Origin: a virus
DNA length: 23,630 nt
Virus record (IMG/VR): IMGVR_UViG_3300010391_000423
Coordinates: 1 to 23,630 of that record
Direction: 5' to 3' (one strand)
In this document: positions 1-23,089 of the stretch, in pieces
Position numbering within the stretch: the first letter of the stretch is position 1
How the letters are laid out: every line of letters starts with the position of its first letter
Translations under genes and position numbers: made by a program
The notes under the pieces: model-generated
Databases searched by the model: none
Told to the model about the DNA's origin: nothing
What the model saw: the letters and a program-made list of their open reading frames with translations, nothing else

Positions 1-1123
1 CCTTGTCGGCCTTCGTCGTCACCGTGTCCCTGATTGCCCAGCCCGACGGCACAGGCAAAGGCATCTGAAGCTGCCCAGTCACTGTGTTCCCACGCGCCGC
101 CACACTCGCCCAATTCTGGCCCAATCCAACTACGCCGCCACCAAAATAATTATCAGTCAAGGTCAAATCCAAATTAGCCGCACTTCCGTATGGGAGCTGC
201 ACATTGTTTGCACTCGCTGCAGCGTGATAGGTGAAGTTGCCAGTAATCGTCACACGCTCGGCTGGGCGCATCCCACCGACCAGGATATTCGCATGGGTTC
301 CTTCGCGTGAAGCCGAGCCATTCGCAAATAGCGTGTTGCCCTCAACCCAAAATCCCTTAATCGCCCCGCCCTCAGTGTAAGCGTGAAAGCCCCAGCCGTA
401 TTGATCGAAAATCACGTTATCCACAATCCGCTTCGTACCCACATCATTCTGGGTGTATATGCCATGACCGTGGCCGCGATCCGGATCAGCTCCCTGATAG
501 CCGTTGTGATAGATCAAGCAACCGTAGACCTGTGAATCAATTGCCGGCGTCCAAAGGCCAATCCCGACTCCATTGTCATGCACGACCAGGTTGATCAGCT
601 TGGCGCCAGGCGCGAAAACGTCCACACCGGCGCCGATTGGTTTGGACCGGTCTGCCGTCGGACACGTTACCTCAAAATCGCGCCAGATCGTGCTACTACC
701 ATTTACGGCTAGTATGGCCTTGCTCTGGTCACTCCCACACACCAGCACCGGCCTTTCGCCTGAGTAAGCCCGGATCGTGACAGCCCCGGCCAGCGAACTG
801 GTAAACGGCCCGGTATAAGTCCCGCCGCGCAGATAGATCGTCCCCGATTTCGCCGGCGAGCTCGCTGCGATTGCGCTGGCAAAGTCGCGCGGGTCGGCAA
901 GCGTCCCTGCTGCAGTCGGTTTCCCTGCTGGCGAGACGATCAGGCCGACAAGCGGCGTAGGCGTCGGTGTAGGTGTCTGCACTGGGGCACATTTCGCGCT
1001 GGTGGTACCGGACTGGCCGGCCTGGACAATCACTGCGCCAGGGCAATCGAGCTGTGGGACGAGCTGCTGGGCGAAAATACCAGCGCTCAGAATTACGAGC
1101 AAGAAACCAACTGATCGTTTCAT
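1..1123 (-). CDS. Exported right-handed beta-helix protein (pectate-lyase-like fold), partial at the window edge
   Basis: An ATG at 1123 with AAGGA four bases upstream opens a frame that runs off the left edge (374 codons seen, C-terminus missing). Residues 1-18 are a Sec signal peptide (MKRSVGFLLVILSAGIFAQQ) with cleavage likely after FA. A Cys-containing stretch and a TPTPTPTP-type linker (about 50-57) precede the beta-helix, which starts near ADPRDFASAIAAS, then TIYLRGGTYTGPFTSSLAGA. It continues in turns such as INLVVHDNGVGIGLW, DRGHGHGIYTQND, VDNVIFDQYGWGFHAY, WVEGNTLFANGS and VTITGNFTYH. The fold occurs in polysaccharide lyases and phage depolymerases. Catalytic residues cannot be assigned from the part seen. 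The signal peptide argues against a tail spike and for a secreted moron product. Confidence 0.85.
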   Translation of the reverse strand, partial: MKRSVGFLLVILSAGIFAQQLVPQLDCPGAVIVQAGQSGTTSAKCAPVQTPTPTPTPLVGLIVSPAGKPTAAGTLADPRDFASAIAASSPAKSGTIYLRGGTYTGPFTSSLAGAVTIRAYSGERPVLVCGSDQSKAILAVNGSSTIWRDFEVTCPTADRSKPIGAGVDVFAPGAKLINLVVHDNGVGIGLWTPAIDSQVYGCLIYHNGYQGADPDRGHGHGIYTQNDVGTKRIVDNVIFDQYGWGFHAYTEGGAIKGFWVEGNTLFANGSASREGTHANILVGGMRPAERVTITGNFTYHAAASANNVQLPYGSAANLDLTLTDNYFGGGVVGLGQNWASVAARGNTVTGQLQMPLPVPSGWAIRDTVTTKADK

Positions 1124-4304: not shown

Positions 4305-7300
4305 TCATTCGTAGACTTCGACACCGAGCCGGTCATAGCCCGGCACGGCGCGCGTTACATTATTATCGTCAAAAATTTGAGTAGGCAAAATCCAGGGGGC
4401 GTTTAAGTCGTTGGCGTAATCAACGGTGATTGCGGCCGTAATAAAATCGCCCACGTCAAAGCGCGTGCGCACGCGGAAGTGGTAGGTATATGTTCCTTCT
4501 AAATCCACCGGCTCGCGCCACTGGTTTGGCGTGCCGGCCCAGAGTAACGCACCGGGAGCGCCAACAATATCTTCGTAGATTTCATAAATCAGATCAGTTA
4601 GGACAAGGCAGGCATCGGTAATAGACGTCCACGTGTGGCGCACTTCGCGGCGCGATTGATCGAGCGTGAGCGTGTAATCGCTCGGCGTTTCGATCTGAAA
4701 ATTCGGCGCCGTGAATTGAAAGCTGGTAGCCGTGATGTCGATGTCGTCAATATCCTGGCCAGCCGTGAAGCCCTTGAAATCCCGCGTCTGGCCAATCTCG
4801 GAAGCTTCCAACGATAAAAACAAGACGGCTGTTTCATCCAACGCGGCAAACTTATCACCCGTAGCGTGTGTGGCCTTGAATGCTGAAGTACATTTCGCGC
4901 CGCGATTGCTGAGATTGCTCAAGCGCCACTGGTTCGGGCTGTCATCAAGTTGCGTGGCCGTGCGGTATTGGAAAATCTCCCCACCAAGAAACACCAGACC
5001 AGCACCAGCGCTGACCTCACCGCCAGAATAGCTTGCCAACACTTGCCCCGGCAATAACTCGACATCAACCGTCTCACTGCCCAATTCAGTCCCGGCCAGG
5101 ACGCTGATCGCCTCGCCGATGGGTGCCTCTACTGAATTCTCGAAGAGTTTTGCATAACCCGCCCCCTTATCCCGGTATAGCTCAAACTCTGGCCAAGGCT
5201 TGGTGCGAATCTGAGGTCCAGCGGCGACGTAGACGCCCGGTAATCCGCTGGCAATTTCAACCTCGCGCCATAACCGGTCAATCAGCACGAAAGACGAATC
5301 AGCAACGGTCTGAATTTCCCCGCCGCCGCCTGTGTGCGTGTCGGTCGGCTCTGTCTCTGCGCAATAAAGCGTAATGCCGGGCGGATAATCGGTGTCAACT
5401 GGCGGTTCGTTATCGTTGCCTAAATGGCGGCAATTAGGCGAAAAGTCCTTGCTGATTTCAGCTTGATCTTTTTGCGGCCACCATGCCCACAAGTCATCTT
5501 GTTTACACGGCCCGTAGCTTTCCATCTCGGCTTGGATTTCTTCGGCTGTCAGGATGGCTGTCCAAGCCTTTGACGCACAGAGCGAACCTTCCAAATATCT
5601 AAAGGCAAAATTGCCTCTGCCACCAAAGAGAATGTCATAGGACCAATACGAGTTCGCCACCGGCCCGTCGCCGGTTGTGTCAATATCAAGCACGCCATCC
5701 AAATAGATTTTACGCGCTGCGCCATCGCCCGCTTCCGAAATGATGGCAACGTGATACCACTGTGAATAATTGAGGGTTGAGCCGTAATCGTAAATTCCGC
5801 CATTGCCCCGAAAATAAAGTTGATGCCCGGCAAAGAAGTTCGAGATGCCTACAGCCCATTCGTTTTCCAGGATGCCGCGCGTAGTAAAAATCTGAGGATC
5901 GCCGGTTGTATCACCATCAACGATCACCCAGAAGGCGACCGTGTTAGGGAACGAAAATGGATCATCGGGATTAGACCGAAATTGAACCACATCACCGCTC
6001 ACGCTGTAATCCGTTGAACCAAGCGTGTCCGATGGCGGCGTGTCGTCGCAAAAGCTGATGGGTAGCAACGTAATAACCGTGCGCAGATTGGCGTAGGCCT
6101 GAGCGGTGACAATCGTTTCGCCGCGCGGCGTGTGAACGAGGCGCCTGACGATGAAATACTGAAAAACATTCCCATCGCGGTCTTTCGCATTGTCGAGCTT
6201 AACTGAAACAACCTTGATTACTTTGTTGGGATGCAGATCAATGACATCGGGCAGGAAGCCCGGGCAGGCAAAATTCACCTCGCAGTTATTGCGCGTGCCG
6301 CCCGAATAAAACCGCCCGTAATCAAGCAGGTAGAAACCGACCTGGCGCGCTTCGGTGATATTGTTCGTGCCGAAAGCCGTTTCCTGGTCCGGCACCTCGC
6401 GTAGCGACTTATCGCCGTAGACCTGTCCTGCCAGCTCCTGCTGCTCCGGATCGGGAAAGAGCAACGGGCGCTCCAGGTTTTTGTGATCTTTATCGTTGAA
6501 GGTCAGCGTGTAGACGTTTGGAATTCTGTCGTCGTCTTTTTGCGTGACGGTAAGCCGAGAAACGCCGTTCTGATCGACCAGGATATTTCTGCTGCTGCCC
6601 AGGTCCGTGAAAGTCGGAATATCGCCAGCATCAAGGTCGTATTCTTCAATTGCCAGCCATCGCGTGATGCCGTCGTGTGCAAAGGGCGGGAATTGCAGCC
6701 CAGCGAGGCAAATATCTTGAAACTGTTGATGCGCGCTCTTGCCTTGCGCCAGGCCGTTGAAGGTCGAGCCCAATTCGGCGAGGTGCAGGAAATCAGCGAT
6801 TGAATGCCGGGCGATGTCTTCACGATGCCCGTAGGTGGTATCGGTCAGTAAATCAACCAGCACCCAGGCGCGCAAGTTGGAATAGGCGTAGCTGAAGCTG
6901 TCCTCGTCCGAGTAGACCTTGATCGTGTTCCGGCCCTTGTATTTGCACTTGGCGATAATCGAGCTTGGCGCTACTCCTACCGGGTTGATCGGATTTACGT
7001 CGCCCCTGAAATGAGCGAGTCGGTTGTAGTTCAGAACATTTTCGCTATAAGTGGTGGGCTCTTGCTGCTGCGTACCCAACCGAACTTCAAGCCCGCGCCC
7101 GTCGGTGTTGCCGAGTAAGGCGAGAATAAAATCTCGAAAGACCACGCCGGTCAGCGTGCGGGGCAATGGGCGGTCCATCATTTCAACTTCGGTAATCTCT
7201 TCGATTGGGCCTTCACTAACTTCAAACAGCGCACGAATCGTCCCCGCGTCCTGATGCTTGGGCGAGGGGTTGTACTCTTTGGCGTAATCGAGCAGCGGCA

Positions 7301-8156
7301 GATTATTTGCCGTACCTTCGCCATAGCAGACCTGTACGGGATTTTTCAGGTGCGTGGTTTGCCCTTGCGTCTCGCTGCCGGTAGTGTGTTGGCCAGCGCC
7401 GATGTTGCTTGTGTCAGCTATGGCATCAAAACCCCCGTAGCTGAGTAAATCACCCAACCGGGCCATACAATCGGCCTTTGCGCCATCGCAGAAAGTAAAC
7501 GGCTCGTCGCCGTTGTCGGGATCGCCCACACCGCGACTCCCACCAACATGGAAATCGTAGTCGCAAGGGTTATTAGGTAGGATCGGATCAAAACGTCCGC
7601 CAAAACGAGCGGCAAAGCGGCACACGGTACCGTGCGGGCTGCTCGGCACAAGCAGATCGGCCGAAAGCAGGCCTGCGGCAACTGAGATTTCAACGAAGTC
7701 TTTGTTTACGGCATCGGGCGTGCGCAAGTGGCCTTGAAAGACTTCCTTCGCAACGCCGCCGTCAATCTGCGGGTAGTAGCGGTAGATGCGAACCTGCACG
7801 CCGCCCTTGTGCGTCAGCGCTAACTTTTCAAATGCCCGCCCGCGATTGACAAACTTCATCCGTACAACGTCGTCGCCGATCTGTGAAGACAGCGGGATTT
7901 CGTGAAAGCGCTCGACACGTTTTTCGTCGTCAGCGACGAAGCCAACGATCAGCGGCGCGCCGTCGAGAAAGTCTTCAAAGGCTGAGGCTGAGTACAGATC
8001 ATCGTCGAGCAATTGCCAGAAAGCATATACTTTGGTGCCATCGGGCGAGGGCCAGAAGATTTTTACGACTTCGGCGTAGGCAAGGCCGTTACCTGCCGCC
8101 GTGATTGCGGCAGCTTGATCGTCGGTCAATACACGAAGCTGATTTCTGTTACTCAT
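4305..8156 (-). CDS. Tail hub / tip attachment protein (gpJ-like) with Cys cluster and LamG domain, 1283 aa
   Basis: Residues about 1-250 resemble DUF2163/gpL-type distal tail proteins, with four cysteines at 179, 198, 223 and 230 (C-x18-C-x24-C-x6-C; the last pair in FCDGAKADCMARLGDLLSYGG), like the iron-sulfur-binding region of lambda gpL. Residues about 270-690 look like a gpJ-type hub (QVCYGEG, then DAGTIRALFEVSEGPIEEIT). Residues about 720-880 form a LamG/concanavalin-like lectin domain (NTVAFWVIVDGD, YSQWYHVAIISEAGDGAARK, IYLDGVLD, FRYLEGSLCASKAWTAILTA). The block around 1060 (EIFQYRTATQ, WRLSNLSNRGAK, HATGDKFAALD) matches the C-terminal part of gene-transfer-agent and gpJ host-specificity proteins. 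It is the likely receptor-contact protein. Confidence 0.85.
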   Translation of the reverse strand: MSNRNQLRVLTDDQAAAITAAGNGLAYAEVVKIFWPSPDGTKVYAFWQLLDDDLYSASAFEDFLDGAPLIVGFVADDEKRVERFHEIPLSSQIGDDVVRMKFVNRGRAFEKLALTHKGGVQVRIYRYYPQIDGGVAKEVFQGHLRTPDAVNKDFVEISVAAGLLSADLLVPSSPHGTVCRFAARFGGRFDPILPNNPCDYDFHVGGSRGVGDPDNGDEPFTFCDGAKADCMARLGDLLSYGGFDAIADTSNIGAGQHTTGSETQGQTTHLKNPVQVCYGEGTANNLPLLDYAKEYNPSPKHQDAGTIRALFEVSEGPIEEITEVEMMDRPLPRTLTGVVFRDFILALLGNTDGRGLEVRLGTQQQEPTTYSENVLNYNRLAHFRGDVNPINPVGVAPSSIIAKCKYKGRNTIKVYSDEDSFSYAYSNLRAWVLVDLLTDTTYGHREDIARHSIADFLHLAELGSTFNGLAQGKSAHQQFQDICLAGLQFPPFAHDGITRWLAIEEYDLDAGDIPTFTDLGSSRNILVDQNGVSRLTVTQKDDDRIPNVYTLTFNDKDHKNLERPLLFPDPEQQELAGQVYGDKSLREVPDQETAFGTNNITEARQVGFYLLDYGRFYSGGTRNNCEVNFACPGFLPDVIDLHPNKVIKVVSVKLDNAKDRDGNVFQYFIVRRLVHTPRGETIVTAQAYANLRTVITLLPISFCDDTPPSDTLGSTDYSVSGDVVQFRSNPDDPFSFPNTVAFWVIVDGDTTGDPQIFTTRGILENEWAVGISNFFAGHQLYFRGNGGIYDYGSTLNYSQWYHVAIISEAGDGAARKIYLDGVLDIDTTGDGPVANSYWSYDILFGGRGNFAFRYLEGSLCASKAWTAILTAEEIQAEMESYGPCKQDDLWAWWPQKDQAEISKDFSPNCRHLGNDNEPPVDTDYPPGITLYCAETEPTDTHTGGGGEIQTVADSSFVLIDRLWREVEIASGLPGVYVAAGPQIRTKPWPEFELYRDKGAGYAKLFENSVEAPIGEAISVLAGTELGSETVDVELLPGQVLASYSGGEVSAGAGLVFLGGEIFQYRTATQLDDSPNQWRLSNLSNRGAKCTSAFKATHATGDKFAALDETAVLFLSLEASEIGQTRDFKGFTAGQDIDDIDITATSFQFTAPNFQIETPSDYTLTLDQSRREVRHTWTSITDACLVLTDLIYEIYEDIVGAPGALLWAGTPNQWREPVDLEGTYTYHFRVRTRFDVGDFITAAITVDYANDLNAPWILPTQIFDDNNVTRAVPGYDRLGVEVYE

Positions 8157-15119: not shown

Positions 15120-15527
15120 TCAACTGCCCTCCGCCATCACGAAATAAAAGCCGCCTTCGTGCTGGTATAAAATGCCGTCTTCAAAGCTGGTGTATTCGAT
15201 ACCGCTCACCCACTCCACTGACCGGGTGGCGTAGCCGGTGATCGTCAACGCCGCGCCTTCCAGGTTCGTCCGAATCGCCCGGGCAATCGCCCCCGCGTTT
15301 TTCGGCGAGCTCGATTTATCAATCCCACGCACCAGGAAAATTGACTCTTCAAACCCGACGCGCTGAAAAACGCGCGCGCCGCGTGGCGGCTGTTGCGCGC
15401 TCACGATAATGAACGGGTACGTGTTGCCTTCTGGCGCAACGTCCGGGTAAATGCGTGTGCTCACCAACGCGGTGATAGTCGAGTCGGTCTGCAAGCGCGT
15501 CAGGATTGCCGACTTGACCACGCTCAT
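15120..15527 (-). CDS. Tail terminator / tail completion protein (DUF3168-like)
   Basis: The 135-aa product opens with MSVVKSAILTRLQTDSTITA and then VSTRIYPDVAPEGNTYPFII, the signature arrangement of DUF3168/tail-completion proteins (lambda gpU and SPP1 gp17 group): a first helix, then a strand with R-I-Y-P and a Y-P-F/Y-I/V motif. The later segments (FLVRGID, AIARAIRTNLEG, and TSFEDGILYQHEGGFYFV) fit the mixed alpha/beta fold of that family. Such proteins cap the growing tail tube and set the interface to the head. ATGA coupling to the gp10-like gene and position just before the tail tube genes support the call. Confidence 0.85.
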   Translation of the reverse strand: MSVVKSAILTRLQTDSTITALVSTRIYPDVAPEGNTYPFIIVSAQQPPRGARVFQRVGFEESIFLVRGIDKSSSPKNAGAIARAIRTNLEGAALTITGYATRSVEWVSGIEYTSFEDGILYQHEGGFYFVMAEGS

Positions 15528-15904
15528 CCAAAGACCTCGTCCAGCTTCTTTTCAAACTCCGGCGCTGCGGCCTCGAAAGCCGAGGCCAGAAACGGACGCG
15601 GCGCCATCTTCGCTCCACCGAATTCGAGCACCGGCGCGTATTCCTGATTTGTCCCAACCACGGCAGTCAATCCGTCAATCTCTGTTTGTATCGAATTCAC
15701 CAGCACCCCCGTATCAATCGCCGGCGCTTCACCTGGCGCGCTGGCCTGGTGGGAGCCGTAGATGTGGCCGGATTTTGCCTCGGCCATCGAAATCTTGATT
15801 CGGGCTTCAATCCCGAAAGCCGTCTCGGCTACGATCTTTTCACCTCGCGAACGCAGTTGCTGCGTAAGTTGTGGGATATTTGATTGAAGCTGAAATTGAC
15901 TCAC
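15524..15904 (-). CDS. HK97 gp10-like neck / head-tail connector protein
   Basis: The 126-aa product has the typical features of the HK97 gp10 family: an N-terminal helix, then SAPGEAPAIDTGVLVNSI (about 55-72), VVGTNQEYAPVLEFGG (about 82-97) and MAPRPFLASAFEAAAPEF (about 100-117). Family members help join tail and head and are normally found between head-closure and tail-terminator genes. The start is GTG at 15904 with no clear ribosome binding site; no ATG exists in frame nearby. Its stop overlaps the tail terminator start by four bases. It should follow the head-closure gene at 22188 directly, but a block of about 5.7 kb lies between them. Confidence 0.88.
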   Translation of the reverse strand: MSQFQLQSNIPQLTQQLRSRGEKIVAETAFGIEARIKISMAEAKSGHIYGSHQASAPGEAPAIDTGVLVNSIQTEIDGLTAVVGTNQEYAPVLEFGGAKMAPRPFLASAFEAAAPEFEKKLDEVFG

Positions 15905-15949: not shown

Positions 15950-16303
15950 TCAAGCCAGCCCGCGCTGAATACGAATCGTCAGAAAAGCCGCCTCGCCCGC
16001 ATCACGCGGAAAAGTCACCTGATCGCCCGCCGGATTAATGCAGATGAACTCGGCCAGATAGATGTTAGGTGTATCTACATCCTCGGCAGCCCAGGCGTAG
16101 GTCACAAGGCCGGGATTGGCTTCCTGATCGGGATCAATCGTTGCCAGCGCGTCGACTGTAGGCTCGTCAATCGAGCCCTTGCGTTTCATCACCAGCTTCA
16201 CCTCTGCCCATGCGCTTAAATCAATCGGCCCATCGCTATCGCTCAAAACGACGCGCAGGGGCACGCCAGTATCACCTTGCTTCAGAAAGAATTCAGTGCT
16301 CAT
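15950..16303 (-). CDS. Small protein resembling the BppU N-terminal domain, 117 aa
   Basis: The opening EFFLKQGDTGVPLRVVLSD, followed by GPIDLSAWAEVKLVMKRKG, a pro-strand linker and NIYLAEFICINPAGDQVTFP, follows the pattern of the phage baseplate upper protein N-terminal fold (BppU_N) and similar stand-alone phage proteins. In those, a beta-sandwich links receptor-binding parts to the virion. Here it is a single domain with no receptor-binding extension. It overlaps the repeat-protein gene by 11 bases (ATGAGCACTGA), with GGTAGG upstream as ribosome binding site, so the two are coupled and their products may interact. A 45-base gap separates it from the neck gene that follows. Confidence 0.7.
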   Translation of the reverse strand: MSTEFFLKQGDTGVPLRVVLSDSDGPIDLSAWAEVKLVMKRKGSIDEPTVDALATIDPDQEANPGLVTYAWAAEDVDTPNIYLAEFICINPAGDQVTFPRDAGEAAFLTIRIQRGLA

Positions 16304-17951
16304 AAAAACCTACCTGCGTTCGTCCTGTGTCGAGTGGTTGCGCGGCTGCGCGTAGTGGCATCGCAAGGGCGATGTCGTCTTCAGTAAGTACCGTCACAGC
16401 AGCCTGCGATTCCGTCATATCAGCCAGACCGCGCGCGTTGTCAATGTCGATCTGTAAAAGCTCAAAAATCTGATCGGCGAACAGGAAGCGCCAAAGGGCT
16501 GTCAGCGGGAAACTGAAATTAAAGTTTCCCGCTTCAGCCGCCAGTACGAACGAGCTCGATAGTACGGCATCCTGCCCGATAAGTGCGAAGTTGCCCGTGT
16601 CCACCACCACAGCGCGGGTGCGCGCAAGGTCTACCACCTGCCCCGTGAGCGTAAAAACGCCGTTCGACGCAGATAGATTTGCTACGCGCAGCAATCCCGC
16701 CGTTTGGCCGTTGAGCGCAAACGCAGCGACAAACGCAGGCATATTCCGAGTGCGCAGGAAGTCTGCGGCCTGGCCGTTGAGCGCGAACGATCCAGCAGCG
16801 CAGACCAGTGTGCGCGTCAGACTCAGACCAACATCCTGTCCGGCGAGAGTGAATGCGCCAGCCGTGACTGCCAGGGTAACGTTAAATGTTATTGATTGTC
16901 CGGTAAGCGCGAATGCACTCGCATCCACAGGCATCGTGAGCGCAAATGTCGCTGCCTGTCCCGCAAGGGTGAAGCTCGCCGCATTCGCTGCCATCGTGAC
17001 ACTACCCGACGACTGCGTGAGCGTGACATCTGCGCCGATGAGCAGAAACGCGGCGACGTTCGCGAGCATTGTGACAGCGAACGTCAGATTCTGACCTACA
17101 AGCAAAAAAGACGCCTGATCGGTAATGACGGCGCGCGTGAGAATGAAACTTGCTGCCTGTCCCGCAAGGATGAAGCTCGCCGCATTCGCTGGCAGCCTCA
17201 CATCAAACGTGACCACGGTGCCGGTGAGGACGAAGCTTGTTGAATCCGCCGTCAACAATACGGCGTGTCTAAGTGCGGTGTCGTTGCCGATGAGGGTAAA
17301 GACTTCGGCAACGATGGGTAAGCTGATGTCAAACGTCGCGTCTTGACCGGCAATGGCGAGGCTTGCCACGTCAGCAAGTATTGAAACGTTGAATGCCGCT
17401 GCCTGGCCAGTGAAAGTGAACGGGTCAACAGCACAGGCCAGCGCGCGTGTTGCCGTGAGTGCGTCATCGTTGCCGGTCAACGCGAAGGCTTCAACAGCGG
17501 CAAGCATTGTGACTTTCAGAGTCGTATCAATGCCCGTTTCAGTGAAGCTCGCAACGGCAGCGGGCATCGTCAGTGCAAAGGTCGAAGCCACGCCGTCCAG
17601 CGTGAAACTCTCACTGGCGGTAGGTAGCTTAACGTCCAGGTTTGGCGTGATGCCGGACAGCATAAAGCTGGCGGCAGAGCAGGCTAGTGTGATGGAAAAG
17701 CTGGCCGCCACGCCGGTGAGCGTAAAGCTTACGACCGCTGCTGGTATGGCAACCTTGAGCGTTACGTCAATCCCGGTCTCGGTGTAGCTCGCGGTGTCGG
17801 CTGTGAGCTTGCGTGCGGCCATCACGCCCGAAGCCACGCCGTCCAACGCGAACGTAGCGACCGTAGCAGAGATTGTGCCACCCGCCTGTACCTGGATGAG
17901 CAGATGGCGACCTTGAGCTTGCCAATATGAGGGTTGCCGAAAGACGCCCAC
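16293..17951 (-). CDS. Tandem short-repeat phage protein, 552 aa (about 21 repeats)
   Basis: Residues about 25-480 consist of about 21 imperfect repeats, each 19-25 residues long. The core of each is roughly A-A-x-F-x-L-x-G-x-x-A-x-F-x-(L/V)-T, as in AASFTLAGQAATFALTMPV. Similar F-x-L-T-G-Q-x-x-x-L repeats occur in minor structural proteins of other phages. Alternating hydrophobic residues suggest a stacked beta-solenoid. A different C-terminal domain of about 75 residues follows (ALWRFLFADQIFELLQID, then acidic VLTEDDIALAMP, then QPLDTGRTQVGFYEH). The start is a GTG with GGAG eight bases upstream. The stop overlaps the next gene by 11 bases. No signal peptide is present, so the protein is probably virion-associated. 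Confidence 0.75.
   Translation of the reverse strand: MGVFRQPSYWQAQGRHLLIQVQAGGTISATVATFALDGVASGVMAARKLTADTASYTETGIDVTLKVAIPAAVVSFTLTGVAASFSITLACSAASFMLSGITPNLDVKLPTASESFTLDGVASTFALTMPAAVASFTETGIDTTLKVTMLAAVEAFALTGNDDALTATRALACAVDPFTFTGQAAAFNVSILADVASLAIAGQDATFDISLPIVAEVFTLIGNDTALRHAVLLTADSTSFVLTGTVVTFDVRLPANAASFILAGQAASFILTRAVITDQASFLLVGQNLTFAVTMLANVAAFLLIGADVTLTQSSGSVTMAANAASFTLAGQAATFALTMPVDASAFALTGQSITFNVTLAVTAGAFTLAGQDVGLSLTRTLVCAAGSFALNGQAADFLRTRNMPAFVAAFALNGQTAGLLRVANLSASNGVFTLTGQVVDLARTRAVVVDTGNFALIGQDAVLSSSFVLAAEAGNFNFSFPLTALWRFLFADQIFELLQIDIDNARGLADMTESQAAVTVLTEDDIALAMPLRAAAQPLDTGRTQVGFYEH
16520..17880 (-). repeat. Degenerate tandem repeat array, period about 57-75 bases
   Basis: This is the DNA underlying the short-repeat protein. 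Copies are diverged at the nucleotide level but keep phrases such as TTTGCGCTGACC- or CTTGCGGGACA-like segments around the conserved F-x-L-x-G codons. Two stretches near 16960-16985 and 17150-17180 (plus strand tgcctgtcccgcaa, aagctcgccgcattcgctg) are nearly identical, which suggests recent unequal recombination between copies. Confidence 0.75.
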
Positions 17952-18497: not shown

Positions 18498-20162
18498 CTA
18501 TTGTGGCAGCACGTGCAGGTGCGCCAACTGACGCAGCCGGTCAAATAAGGGCGCAACTACAACCTGCACCAGTATCCTGCTCGCGTATAAATCGTTGTTG
18601 TTCGTTGTGGCGATCACGTCAATCTCGTACGCGCTGTCGGGCAGCGTGAGCGTCGAGCGCCCCGCGTTGTCTGGGTTAGTGACGGTTGAGCCGGTAACAT
18701 CAACTGGCGTGCTGTTAGGGTTGTACTGAAGCTTAGCGTCAGATGTTGCTCCGTTGGCGGCTTCAAGCTGGTGCGCATAGGTGTTTATGACGCCACGCCA
18801 TTCAGCCGGGTCAAAGTAAGTGTCGGAGTTCTGCAAAGCCGTGCCTGCGGCGAGCAGGGTGTTGGCGATGAGGCATTGGGGTTCGAGCTTTGAGATGCCT
18901 GGCTGACCTAGCATCTCAAAGTAAATGTCACCGCTATTGGGTAACGCAACCCAGGTATTGTTATCGCGCGACCACGGCACGCTATTGGGGTAGACAGAGA
19001 TGAATCCGGTGTGACCTTCGACGGAGTATACGTTCGTCACATCATACCCCCCTGTTCGCGTGAATCGCAGATAATAGGTAGTCCCTGGCGTCAGCGGTAG
19101 ACTATTACTGAAGGTCAGCGTATAAGTCGCAAACGATGAGGTCAAAGAAGTGCCCCCAATAGTGGCGGACGCGAGCGGACTGCTCGACGTTAGGTCGTTC
19201 ACGATGTCTACATTAACTGTGTCAATTGGAAATCCCGACTTCTTCAGGCCGACCTTTACACCGGTTATATTTCCGGCTTGAGCTACAGTGAATTCTTGCG
19301 CACAGGCTTGTTGATTTTGTCCGCTGGTTGCTGTTCCACCAGCGATAGAGCCAACCGCAGTGCCGTCTCTGTAGTAGTTCACCGCGTCGGTCTGCAGGAT
19401 AATCAGCTTGGCGTTGTAGATGGTTCCGGTATTCTTCGTCGAGGTGGTCTTTACTGCCACTCTATAGTTACGTCCCGAAATGAGCGTGATATAGTTACCA
19501 ATTAGATTGCGTGTCCTTGTTGCGGTTGTGGCCGTGACAGTCAGAGCAACGCCAGTGTCCGCCCACCCGGTGAAGCCGTCGCCCGTGCCATCGGCAACTT
19601 GAAGGCTGTAGGTCATCGTATTCTTTGTTGAATCCGACTTGCCTGTTACTTCTAGGTATACAAGTAGCGTGCCGTTCCTGTTCGCTGAATCGAAGTAAAA
19701 ATATTTAGGGCGGGTAAGCGCGCTGGCAGTTGTAGCGGTGAAGGTCTGCGTGTCTCCCAATTCGATTTGCGTTTCAGTCCGAGTGAGCGCAGTGCTATTT
19801 TGAATAATAACAATCCGCGCGGCTTTTACATTCTTCGTCGCCCCGACCGCCGCATCAATAAATACCACGTACTCAGTTGCCCCGTCAGGCGGCGCGAATG
19901 AAGCTGAACGAATGCGCGTGTAGGCGGTTGTGAGCAGAGGGATAGTGCAAGTGGCATCGTCCGTTGACGTACCCTTGCGTCGTAATGTGACGTTGCTGGT
20001 GAGCGAAAGCGAAGTATCGGCTACGATCTCAAAGTAACAAGTGATCGTTCCGCTATATTGCGCCGTATCTAGCCGGACTATCTCGTTGGACGTAGCCGAA
20101 GCTCCGCTGGCCGCGCTGAGCACGGCAGTCAGGATATTTATTTCTTGGCGAATCGTCGACAT
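18498..20162 (-). CDS. Large beta-rich surface-type structural protein, 554 aa
   Basis: Almost the whole protein alternates Thr/Ser/Val-rich strands, typical of phage decoration or fibre-like proteins. Residues about 275-430 look like a jelly-roll carbohydrate-binding module: CAQEFTVAQAGNITGVKVGL, then an Asp/Asn-containing strand VDIVNDLTSSSPLASATI, the segment SFATYTLTFSNSLPLTPGTT, and a terminal GDIYFEMLG strand. That arrangement is common in bacterial choice-of-anchor/DUF4082-like modules. The rest (YEIDVIATTNNNDLYASRIL near the C-terminus) resembles conserved phage particle proteins. The ATG follows the TAA of the methyltransferase-glycosyltransferase gene with no gap. Proximity to that enzyme makes it a candidate target for glycosylation or methylation, which is inference only. 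Confidence 0.75.
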   Translation of the reverse strand: MSTIRQEINILTAVLSAASGASATSNEIVRLDTAQYSGTITCYFEIVADTSLSLTSNVTLRRKGTSTDDATCTIPLLTTAYTRIRSASFAPPDGATEYVVFIDAAVGATKNVKAARIVIIQNSTALTRTETQIELGDTQTFTATTASALTRPKYFYFDSANRNGTLLVYLEVTGKSDSTKNTMTYSLQVADGTGDGFTGWADTGVALTVTATTATRTRNLIGNYITLISGRNYRVAVKTTSTKNTGTIYNAKLIILQTDAVNYYRDGTAVGSIAGGTATSGQNQQACAQEFTVAQAGNITGVKVGLKKSGFPIDTVNVDIVNDLTSSSPLASATIGGTSLTSSFATYTLTFSNSLPLTPGTTYYLRFTRTGGYDVTNVYSVEGHTGFISVYPNSVPWSRDNNTWVALPNSGDIYFEMLGQPGISKLEPQCLIANTLLAAGTALQNSDTYFDPAEWRGVINTYAHQLEAANGATSDAKLQYNPNSTPVDVTGSTVTNPDNAGRSTLTLPDSAYEIDVIATTNNNDLYASRILVQVVVAPLFDRLRQLAHLHVLPQ

Positions 20163-21203
20163 TTAGTTATTCAAATGCTCAATCTTTAACATTCCCCACA
20201 GTTCAACTACGGGCAACCTGCGCGGTTGTACTTCGTTGCGCCAATACCAGCCATCACAAGTTGTTTCTGCAGGAGCCTGCGCGAATGACGTTTGCTCCAT
20301 CAGTAATCGGCTAAATAGAGAGCAGCCAAAGCCGCTCATTCCCTGCTCTGGGTTCGTCCGGTCGGGATAGTTATGGCTTGTCCAGCAGGCTTGCTGACCG
20401 TGCTTGAGTAGTACGCGAATCGTCTCAGGCGGCGCAATAACATCACTCTCTAAGTTCAGCCAATACGTCGCATCGCTCGCCAAAAACTCTTGCCTGATGC
20501 GCTCCATTGACAACGCAATACGCCGATTCATCGGCTCACGCTGAAGTTCAATGCGAATCATCGACACGCGCTCGCACCAGCGTTCGTAGAACTCCGGCGT
20601 ATCTGAGTTGTCCACAAGTAACATACGCTTGTTCGGCCAGTCGAGGTTGTCAACCGCATCAAGCCAGCGTTGCATTGCATACTCTTTGCATGAGTAATTC
20701 GCACAAGCAATCAATATCTGCGGCCCCTTCAAATGTTCATCCCACCAGGCGCGCGATTGCCAAGTGATATAGCGATACTCGTTATGCCATTCGGCCTCGC
20801 TGGAATCTACGTTGTGATCTTGAATCCGCCCAATGCGATGGCATTCAGCCACGGCGCGCTTTACGTCAGATTCCTGTTGATAGCCAAACAATCCTTGACT
20901 GTGGACGACATCAAAAAAGCCATCTTTGAAAGGCAATTCACGCACATCGCCGTAGATTACGAAGCCCGGCGCGCAGGTGTTCTCAAGCGCGTATTCGCTC
21001 ATCTCGCATCCCCAGGCATCGCAGCCTAGCTCGCGCAGGCACTTCACAAGGTAGCCGCAGCCTGTGCCACAATCCAAAATTCGACAGCGGCCATACTTGG
21101 TAATGAGGGATGCGCCCAAACCAGCACAATAGTCATGCCGGTGAACTGTGCCCCAAATAGCCTGGTAATAGTCTGGCCCGAATTGTGGTGGTTGATCGCT
21201 CAC
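20163..21203 (-). CDS. Fusion of class I SAM methyltransferase and GT-A-type glycosyltransferase
   Basis: The N-terminal half is a class I methyltransferase: motif I ILDCGTGCGYL (about 42-52), the acidic residue after strand 2 in GCEMSEYAL, and GDVRELPFKDGFFDVVHSQ as the motif II/III region (Methyltransf_11 style). After about residue 155 a second domain begins with PQILIACANYSC, followed by LLVDNSDTPEFYERW and ATYWLNLESDVIAPPE. This is the nucleotide-sugar-binding start and DXD-like metal site (ESD) of a GT-A fold, and CDGWYWR lies near the end. The GTG at 21203 is preferred because it overlaps the upstream TGA by four bases; a TTG at 21236 would add 11 residues. Substrate is unknown. Modification of virion or host surface glycan is inferred from the neighbours. 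Confidence 0.8.
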   Translation of the reverse strand: MSDQPPQFGPDYYQAIWGTVHRHDYCAGLGASLITKYGRCRILDCGTGCGYLVKCLRELGCDAWGCEMSEYALENTCAPGFVIYGDVRELPFKDGFFDVVHSQGLFGYQQESDVKRAVAECHRIGRIQDHNVDSSEAEWHNEYRYITWQSRAWWDEHLKGPQILIACANYSCKEYAMQRWLDAVDNLDWPNKRMLLVDNSDTPEFYERWCERVSMIRIELQREPMNRRIALSMERIRQEFLASDATYWLNLESDVIAPPETIRVLLKHGQQACWTSHNYPDRTNPEQGMSGFGCSLFSRLLMEQTSFAQAPAETTCDGWYWRNEVQPRRLPVVELWGMLKIEHLNN

Positions 21204-21595
21204 TGCGTCTCGATCGTCGTCGTCTTGAATGGGCAAACCGCCCCATTACATATTTCAGCAGTCACCGTCCAAATGGCAACGCAACTAGGCGTGAATTGCG
21301 TAGTGAACGTCGCGCTCGCCTTGCCGCTGAGCGTAACATCCGACACGATAAGCAACACCTGCTCAGTTGCCGTCCCGCCGCAATCAGCCGTGGCTCGCAT
21401 GATCACTGAAACGTGCTTGGTGCCGTTGCAATTGTTTGTAGCGATCGCGGTGACGGTCACTGATTGGCCCAGAGTGATCACGGCATTGTCAACCGCCACG
21501 CTTGGCGTCACACAAGGCGTTTTCAACACCACCGTGCCGTAGATACGATCTTGAGCGAAACCGATCGCGCCCAAAATGACGGCTAAAACCGCCAC
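21200..21595 (-). CDS. Secreted Cys-rich, Ig-like-type protein (131 aa as read; probably about 141 aa with its leader)
   Basis: The open frame begins with a GTG at 21595 that has no ribosome binding site and starts inside a hydrophobic signal-peptide core (VAVLAVILGAIGFAQ). The real start is probably the ATG at 21624, reached through the T8 tract. The predicted mature part (from about DRIYGT) is beta-rich with short strand-like repeats (SVAVDNAVITLGQSVTV) resembling bacterial Ig-like or fibronectin-like folds. It has six cysteines (TPC, NNCNG, ADCGG, PSCVA, ICNGAVC), enough for three disulfides, which fits an exported protein. No specific family is recognised. It directly follows a terminator and overlaps the next gene by four bases. 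Export from the cell is odd for a virion component, so a moron role at the host surface is plausible. Confidence 0.7.
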   Translation of the reverse strand: MAVLAVILGAIGFAQDRIYGTVVLKTPCVTPSVAVDNAVITLGQSVTVTAIATNNCNGTKHVSVIMRATADCGGTATEQVLLIVSDVTLSGKASATFTTQFTPSCVAIWTVTAEICNGAVCPFKTTTIETQ

Positions 21596-21712: not shown

Positions 21713-22174
21713 TCACGCTAGCGTCAACACGCCTGCCGAACCATCAAAGTCCACCGTGAAGGTCTCACCCGTATTGATCGAAATTGACGAGCCATAATCG
21801 TACCAGCCAATCAATGGACGTGTAGAGGCCGCACCCGCTGTCGCATTGTAGAGCACGACGTAACGGAACGGCCCGAAGCTGCCACCGGACGCCGTGAATA
21901 CCACGTCCGCCAAAACCAGCTTATACGTACCTGAAGTTTGTGCTGAGCTTGATTGCGTGGCCGTTGCACCACCCGCGCTGTAACCATTCTGCGCCGTGAT
22001 CTCCACCGCATTCGAGGTTGCTTCCAAGCGTACGTCAACACTGGTGTCAAACTGAATGTCGGCAGCGTTCGGCGAAGTATTAAAGAGCGCGACTTTGAGT
22101 GTGTCTGTACCCAGATTATGGATTTTTTCAGCCACGTCTTCGACAAATTGATTGAACTTATTGAAACTTGCCAT
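21713..22174 (-). CDS. Conserved phage structural protein, 153 aa
   Basis: The sequence belongs to a recurrent phage/prophage protein type that I recognise by its opening (FNKFNQFVEDVAEKIHNLG), its LKVALFNTSP strand, the central NGYSAGG and TSGTYKLVLADVVFTASGGS segments, and the ending IGWYDYGSSI followed by TFTVDFD. Members are beta-rich structural proteins found in head or tail regions; the exact location in the virion is not known to me. A clear CGGAGA ribosome binding site lies about seven bases before the ATG, in a 13-base gap after the head-closure gene. A rho-independent terminator follows 24 bases after the stop, so this gene ends a transcriptional unit. Confidence 0.8.
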   Translation of the reverse strand: MASFNKFNQFVEDVAEKIHNLGTDTLKVALFNTSPNAADIQFDTSVDVRLEATSNAVEITAQNGYSAGGATATQSSSAQTSGTYKLVLADVVFTASGGSFGPFRYVVLYNATAGAASTRPLIGWYDYGSSISINTGETFTVDFDGSAGVLTLA

Positions 22175-22187
22175 TTTGCTTTCTCCG

Positions 22188-22556
22188 TTAAATGCCCCGA
22201 ACTAAAAATCTGTCGGCCATTTGATAAGAGCGCGTGCCTGCGTCGGTCACTACTGCGTAAGTCGCGCTGCCAATCACCAGCCTGTCAGTGGTCACAACAC
22301 CGGTGCCAAGCGGCAGAGCAATCAGAAAGGCTTCACTTGCTTTAATTCCGGCGGCTACGATTTGTTTTTCATAGCGCGGATTATTGCCAACGAAAACCAG
22401 CCGGCATTTCGTGCGCGCGCGTTGCGTTGTCCAGCTTTCGATTTTCCCGCCCTCGCCGTCGGAAGCGAGCAAGCGGCTGTAAACAAGCGCGACATCCGGC
22501 ATTGCGTCCTCGTTCGCCGCGCGAACTTTTTGAATTATCGAAGCTGGGATATTCAT
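22188..22556 (-). CDS. Head closure / head-tail joining protein (SPP1 gp16-like)
   Basis: The 122-aa product is a small beta-rich protein with the layout of phage head-closure proteins: an N-terminal helix, then SRLLASDGEGGKIESW (about 27-42), which corresponds to the start of the beta-barrel in this family, followed by alternating strands and the C-terminal DRLVIGSATYAVVTDAG segment. Such proteins seal the connector after DNA packaging and provide the docking surface for the tail. The start is coupled to the adaptor gene by ATGA. Length and position immediately after the DnaT-like adaptor fit the usual neck order. The family call rests on pattern and synteny, since sequence conservation in this family is weak. 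Confidence 0.75.
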   Translation of the reverse strand: MNIPASIIQKVRAANEDAMPDVALVYSRLLASDGEGGKIESWTTQRARTKCRLVFVGNNPRYEKQIVAAGIKASEAFLIALPLGTGVVTTDRLVIGSATYAVVTDAGTRSYQMADRFLVRGI

Positions 22557-23089
22557 GCTCGCTGGAATCTGTTCCCTTGCAAGAGCCCGCTCAGCAGCCT
22601 TGCCACCACAACCGGCAACTGGCCAGCCTGCGCTTTGCTCTGGCTGCCCTGGCCGAATTTGACCCGAACGTTATCGGCTTGAAACTCTTCGACGCGGGCA
22701 TCATCGGCCTCATTCGTATTGAAGCGTTCGTCGAGGATTGCAAAAGCCAGCTCACATTGTGCGCGCTTGACCGGCCCGGCAATCTCGGTCATCAGGTAGT
22801 CATTGGGCCCAGCATAGCCGTCAAGGTAGCTGCCACTTGCACTATCGCGTTTTTCAAGTCCACTGCGCGGGTGTGAGAGCGCCTGCGTAGTCGTCGCGCG
22901 CGCGCCGCGCCAATTATTGATTTCCAGCAAGTCCATTGTTTCAAGCAAGCCCAAAGCTTTGTCATCACTTGAGAGCGCCAACACAGTCGCTGAATTGCGC
23001 TTGAGCGCAAGAAATGCGTCGAACTCGGCGACAGAGTTGTAGCTGTCCGATGAAGCGCCGCCGATGGTTGTTGTAAGCGTGATAGCCAT
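22553..23089 (-). CDS. DnaT-like head-tail adaptor protein
   Basis: The 178-aa product matches the pattern of phage proteins annotated as DnaT-like ssDNA-binding: an early Y-N-S-V-A-E-F-D-A-F segment (about 17-26), a helical stretch ending in NNWRG (about 58-62), then TTTQALSHPRSG (about 66-77). In phages such proteins sit directly after the capsid genes and act as head-tail adaptors like HK97 gp6, so a connector role is inferred here rather than DNA replication. The C-terminal end (LPVVVARLLSGLLQG) is helical, as in those relatives. The ATG has no good Shine-Dalgarno, but an in-frame TGA two codons upstream excludes an earlier start. Its stop overlaps the head-closure start by four bases. 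Confidence 0.85.
   Translation of the reverse strand: MAITLTTTIGGASSDSYNSVAEFDAFLALKRNSATVLALSSDDKALGLLETMDLLEINNWRGARATTTQALSHPRSGLEKRDSASGSYLDGYAGPNDYLMTEIAGPVKRAQCELAFAILDERFNTNEADDARVEEFQADNVRVKFGQGSQSKAQAGQLPVVVARLLSGLLQGNRFQRA

Follow-up and report, generated by a model that had tools for sequence, protein, structure and literature searches.

Introduction

Glycosyltransferases (GTs) are known from phages, as are a few cases of virion glycosylation; to our knowledge, dedicated pairs of acceptor and enzyme have hardly been described. In the chlorovirus PBCV-1, an algal virus, the protein A064R (GT-GT-methyltransferase) adds two rhamnoses to a capsid-protein glycan and 2-O-methylates the terminal one (PMC9614988). 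ORF6 of Klebsiella pneumoniae O7, which acts in bacterial O-antigen assembly, has the order methyltransferase (MT)-kinase-coiled coil-GT2-GT2 (PMC11231755), and at Fap1/GspB-type adhesin loci dedicated GT genes adjoin the adhesin, whose Ser-rich region is O-glycosylated intracellularly (PMC5207161, PMC6973325).

Here we describe a phage MT-GT fusion encoded on a 23,630-base virus record (IMG/VR IMGVR_UViG_3300010391_000423), referred to below in its entirety as the window. Like A064R, the fusion is virus-encoded and joins a GT-A domain (about 200 aa in A064R) to a class I SAM O-methyltransferase-like domain in one polypeptide, while A064R differs in coming from a eukaryotic virus, in its domain order and in acting on an N-glycan of the capsid protein. 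We propose that the two enzymes may be functionally alike, the likeness resting on function and domain make-up; a PDB profile search with the phage GT returned no A064R chain at E values up to 1. ORF6 and WbdD-type terminators likewise carry an N-terminal SAM-dependent MT and C-terminal GT modules in a single chain and perform methyl(-phosphate) capping of a glycan, but they serve O-antigen assembly, include a kinase and a coiled coil, are much larger and have no virion partner.

Results

A two-domain gene within the head-tail connector block

A sequence-only reading of the window had proposed an MT-GT fusion within a phage neck module, next to a large beta-rich protein and a secreted protein. 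The following features, all on the minus strand, define the region.

20163..21203, minus: MT-GT fusion gene, 346 aa, starting at a GTG within a GTGA that overlaps the upstream gene (nine-sequence alignment A6)
20724..21203, minus: class I SAM-methyltransferase domain, residues ~8–158 (profile, alignment and predicted structure)
20163..20723, minus: compact GT-A glycosyltransferase domain, residues 161–346 (predicted structure and alignment)
18498..20162, minus: beta-rich partner, 554 aa, start codon immediately after the fusion stop
16293..17951, minus: repetitive beta protein, 552 aa, many similar short repeats AxFxLxGxxxxxxxT
15524..15904, minus: tail completion/Neck1 protein (phrog_5, 6.4e-14)
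21200..21595, minus: Ig-like/beta protein on weak evidence, 131 aa, overlapping the fusion start by 4 bases
21713..22174, minus: phrog_644 family protein, function not known (PHROG match)
22553..23089, minus: head-tail adaptor Ad1 (phrog_477, 1.9e-24)

An alternative in-frame TTG at 21236 would give an ORF of 357 aa (20163–21236, minus). The GTG start is more plausible because its GTGA overlaps the stop of the upstream gene and homologs begin at the matching position; the coordinates chosen by the sequence-only reading correspond to this form and are the better choice. A single uninterrupted frame runs through the MT domain and then the GT-A domain, as had been read, and every motif quoted for the protein was found in it, the metal motif being LESD (ExD). 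An assembly artefact was ruled out, with an identical join in independent contigs and no stop within the window ORF.

The fusion interrupts the head-tail connector block, with Ad1 upstream and the tail completion/Neck1, tail terminator and major tail proteins downstream, in agreement with the neck-module placement. The description of the neighbour at 21200–21595 as secreted fared less well: its N-terminal hydrophobic stretch is only modest, and its Ig-like and 3D matches were below threshold. No transmembrane segment was found in the MT-GT enzyme (highest 19-residue hydropathy 0.65), which sets it apart from the membrane-anchored Gtr-type serotype conversion system (GtrA/B/C). No other sugar gene was recognised in the 23.6-kb window, part of whose ORFs were profile-scanned. 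At the end of the contig, the protein at 2-1123 (minus), which runs off the end, has a signal-peptide-like start and by eye a probable right-handed beta-helix; it had no PHROG match.

Conserved sites and predicted folds of the two halves

The N-terminal half matched the Pfam family Methyltransf_11 at 46 bits against a curated cut-off of 21.2 (E 8.5e-12, residues 54–135 of the 357-aa form), confirming the family suggested for it. Among the nine fusions of A6, VHRHDY (20–25) and the SAM loop G46xGCG50 were invariant (346-aa numbering); the Gly-rich motif I (LDCGTGCG) and the acidic residue (E/D) after strand 2 were conserved, D55 being replaced in one fusion only (L006). AlphaFold2 run with the nine fusion sequences (pLDDT 82, pTM 0.73) gave an MT structure matching the class I methyltransferases 6f5z, 3cgg, 3dlc, 2p8j and LahSB (E 2e-5 to 4e-5). 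The domain appears short because only five core strands (41-45, 62-67, 82-84, 97-103, 125-131) were modelled, all ahead of the GT start; strands 6-7 were unseen and region 136–145 was of low confidence. On this model, a role of the short domain in binding or structure is conceivable.

The C-terminal half showed a clear GT-A match in the predicted structure (Z 17.5–17.7), as anticipated, aligning over 172-178 residues with WrtF (Z 17.7), mannosylglycerate synthase (Z 17.5) and SpsA (Z 16.3). The predicted fold is that of these enzymes and of further GT-A members such as Mimivirus R699, at about 9-16% identity. Invariant residues in the nine fusions were E252xD254, H277, GxGC 291-294, D317, W321 and H343, such that the expected DXD-type metal motif is present as ExD. 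H343 sits at the end of the structural match to mannosylglycerate synthase and is a putative metal-binding His. By profile, the GT2 family suggested for this half fell short in the window: its GT half reached 13.1 bits with Glycos_transf_2 (PF00535), under the gathering cut-off of 23.3, while the homolog in L007 barely exceeded it (23.6 bits). A PDB sequence search with the GT profile gave nothing of note.

Distribution of the fusion

Single-protein searches for close relatives were empty in both INPHARED and IMG/VR. The first real relatives were found through a bait alignment (A1) that included two invented sequences for looser search patterns; all later alignments and all inferences used real sequences only. 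Loci of relatives fetched from IMG/VR are given L-numbers. After removal of duplicates and one incomplete copy, A6 held nine full-length fusions, the window and eight further non-identical ones from IMG/VR with 42–47% identity to it over the full length, which also shows that the join is genuine.

No MT-GT fusion was found in INPHARED phages. In prokaryotes, a pattern scan of 84,980 genomes with the fusion alignment returned only MT-domain matches (best 80 of 113), and the GT profile matched 1 of ~1150 sampled genomes from three phyla, weakly (2.8e-7), while 6/6 viral sequences used as positive controls matched; a bacterial origin was rejected on these two results. We found no description of a phage MT-GT fusion in the open-access literature. 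The statement that the fusion was not a recognised one thus holds for phages in the records searched, but A064R is a close functional precedent, and MT and GT modules also share polypeptides in bacteria.

A beta-rich gene follows every fusion with downstream sequence

All ORFs of the fetched loci were searched with HMMs of the MT half, the GT half and the beta-rich protein. The beta-rich family was the next gene downstream in 9/9 fusions with downstream sequence (the window, L004, L006, L007, L010, L011, L012, L013 and L024), the two genes lying 0–2 bp apart or overlapping by 1 bp at eight loci and being separated by 109 bp in L012. The sequence-only reading had named recurrence of the fusion next to the same beta-rich gene as a check; it held for the window and all eight relatives. 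Seven of these eight were retrieved with MT or GT queries and not with the beta-rich gene, so for them the linkage is not circular; L024 was retrieved via the beta-rich gene. Neighbouring genes in relatives include those for portal, scaffold and major head protein, which indicates that the position of the cassette varies within the head/neck module.

The predicted model of the window's beta-rich protein (pLDDT 84.8) begins with a CBM6/36-like sandwich (residues 1–126; Z about 10, with about 105 residues superposed at 2.5 Å). Residues 262–420 resemble a baseplate protein of phi812 (Z 14.0), a capsid-associated protein of PBCV-1 (13.7) and a capsid chain of cyanophage A4 (9.5). The model is most naturally read as that of a fibre, spike or decoration protein.

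Two further observations on the surroundings of this gene were made by eye. Repeats of the window protein at 16293-17951 resemble L003 8036-9568 and the C-terminus of the L003 beta-rich protein (5557-8025). A family of ~140 aa (MEYKYPQ...) often precedes the beta-rich gene where the GT fusion is absent; the members scanned had no Pfam or PHROG match. Members are:

L002:5591-6001, MEYKYPQ family
L019:4578-4997, MEYKYPQ family
L022:4481-4987, MEYKYPQ family
L028:4568-4987, MEYKYPQ family
L109:6566-7030, MEYKYPQ family
L013:4624-5004, MEYKYPQ family

Exchange of the N-terminal module

The same GT also occurs alone (L109) and behind a Cys-rich N-terminal domain in place of the MT, with the motif C..CG.C...CPH...C.I...C...KCGY, in three loci:

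L003:4680-5555, Cys-rich domain before the GT
L111:5746-6573, Cys-rich domain before the GT
L118:5713-6561, Cys-rich domain before the GT

No Pfam or NCBIfam family exceeded its cut-off for the Cys-rich domain. Its assignment as a FliB/YkgJ CxxCxxCC methylase, compared through the FliB Cys motif (PMC8598068), was not retained; a CxxCxxC-type motif is visible, but there was no PF03692 profile match. The beta-rich gene adjoins these GTs with other N-termini in L003 and L118 and lies near them in L109 and L111; no beta-rich gene was detected in the fetched stretches around the more distant stand-alone GTs of L008, L123 and L124.

On the GT tree, the window grouped with the stand-alone L109 and the Cys-rich L003 and L111 (support 100/98), apart from most other fusions. 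A single clade of all MT-GT fusions was rejected (AU p = 3.2e-5), as was a single clade of Cys-rich fusions (AU p = 3.4e-5). Consistent with this grouping, the window MT was 45–66% identical to other fusion MTs, whereas its GT was 33–49% identical to other fusion GTs and 47–56% identical to those of L109, L003 and L111. The tree rejections and this contrast in identity indicate more than one exchange or loss of the N-terminal module. Either direction at the window is compatible with the tree, gain of the MT there or its loss in the others.

Sugar genes and Ser/Thr-rich tails in relatives

Extra sugar genes lie directly upstream in L011, L024, L004, L118 and L019, drawn from the epimerase, NTP transferase, GT2, Gly_transf_sug and TOD1 families. 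Among the selected upstream genes of six other contigs there was no sugar-gene match, the remaining flanks being read by eye. Cassettes and proteins with long Ser/Thr-rich repeats (SPSxSPS, STSTSSTSQS) are located as follows:

L011:90-5023, phage glycan cassette directly upstream of the fusion, with epimerase/dehydratase and several GTs
L024:356-3334, phage glycan cassette directly upstream of the fusion, with NTP transferase and several GTs
L017:5001-10496, protein with long Ser/Thr-rich repeats
L011:6025-9198, protein with long Ser/Thr-rich repeats
L024:5001-8738, protein with long Ser/Thr-rich repeats
L019:6651-7832, protein with long Ser/Thr-rich repeats

In several relatives the beta-rich protein ends in mucin-like Ser/Thr repeats, with S+T over 150 aa reaching 52% (L004/L017), 70% (L011) and 91% (L024); in L019 the gene after the beta-rich gene encodes 73% S+T. 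Across 15 contigs with a complete beta-rich gene, a Ser/Thr-rich tail on the beta-rich protein or, in L019, in the next gene was present in 4/4 with extra sugar genes and 0/11 without them, a split with a chance probability of 1/1365 if contigs were independent, which these few, related contigs are not, and the pattern was seen post hoc. In the window itself, the beta-rich protein lacks such a Ser/Thr-rich tail, its S+T content peaking at 28%. HNH-like genes were also seen near the glycan cassette in L024, and in L019.

L004, L011, L024 and L019 resemble the Fap1/GspB-type loci in having a Ser/Thr-rich region beside GT genes. Those loci differ in encoding Gram-positive cell-wall proteins with accessory Sec export, and the window differs from them in lacking a Ser-rich tail.

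Discussion

Glycosylation of a virion protein with methyl capping by the fusion is the best explanation of this locus, and we hold it with moderate confidence. What we infer are the two activities, the sugar and its acceptor, the sequence of the steps and the benefit. The C-terminal GT-A domain would use a nucleotide sugar and a divalent metal, bound by the ExD motif plus the C-terminal His, to add a sugar; the acceptor would most likely be Ser/Thr of the adjacent fibre-like beta-rich virion protein, or a glycan already present there. The N-terminal SAM domain would then cap the added sugar by O-methylation, and the benefit may lie, for instance, in shielding from host enzymes or in tuned adhesion. 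The add-and-cap logic proposed from the sequence is plausible. Since the partner in the window lacks a Ser-rich tail, the sugar may here go onto ordinary Ser/Thr residues in the beta domains, onto a different virion protein or onto some other target.

The enzyme might instead add and methyl-cap a sugar on a host surface glycan, a receptor or O-antigen, during infection, so that the phage's CBM-like adhesin avoids debris and infected cells. The partner's CBM-like domains could bind the very glycan altered, MT and GT are joined in ORF6 of K. pneumoniae O7, a protein of bacterial O-antigen assembly (PMC11231755), and one of the nearest MT domains, in an 897-aa plasmid-encoded protein, adjoins an ABC transporter pair and galE. 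However, the gene lies among late structural genes of the head/neck module and not among early or lysogenic-conversion genes, and no GtrA/GtrC-type partners were recognised in the window. We favour the virion over the host surface because the enzyme has no membrane segment, is strictly linked to a fibre-type virion gene and has relatives whose Ser/Thr-rich tails point to protein acceptors; action on a host glycan is accordingly unlikely.

We also consider it quite improbable that the GT alone is active, with the short SAM domain and its Cys-rich replacements serving as targeting or regulatory modules that bring it to the beta-rich protein. This would fit an N-terminal module that is interchangeable or dispensable (absent in L109, Cys-rich in L003, L111 and L118) and an MT model from which the usual last strands are missing, but the SAM loop and strand-2 acid are conserved across the fusions, D55 being replaced in L006 alone, as expected of a SAM-using enzyme. 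Phages use GTs on hydroxymethylated bases and their DNA-modification genes can be scattered, yet glycosylation of a modified base in hypermodified phage DNA is very improbable here, given that the gene is strictly linked to one for a virion protein, that its best GT-A matches are GTs acting on glycans and proteins, and that 12 related virus records (possibly fragments) yielded neither a TET/JBP match above cut-off nor a thymidylate-synthase-like gene.

Returning to glycosylation of the virion, we propose that the GT is the constant part, that the GT-plus-fibre pair forms the core because the MT can be absent or swapped for a Cys-rich module, and that the N-terminal module tailors the product. 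More broadly, and tentatively, these loci may represent a widespread, undescribed system for modular O-glycosylation and capping of phage fibres, a counterpart to the serine-rich-repeat adhesin loci of bacteria. It would comprise a virus-specific GT-A, a CBM-like fibre and interchangeable N-terminal modules (a SAM-methyltransferase, a Cys-rich domain possibly of methylase type, or none), with a mucin-like tail in some members.

Relative to the open-access literature searched, what is new is an MT-GT fusion that recurs in phages in linkage with a single fibre family, whose N-terminal modules can be exchanged and which comes with candidate acceptors of mucin-like type. Accompanying this fibre family through unrelated head modules, the GT offers an enzyme-acceptor pair that can be tested directly, and the swaps of its N-terminal modules are a natural experiment on the role of methyl capping for the phage. 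If the Ser/Thr-rich tails are glycosylated, they would be to phages what mucin-like adhesins are to bacteria and would bear on adsorption and the stability of the particle.
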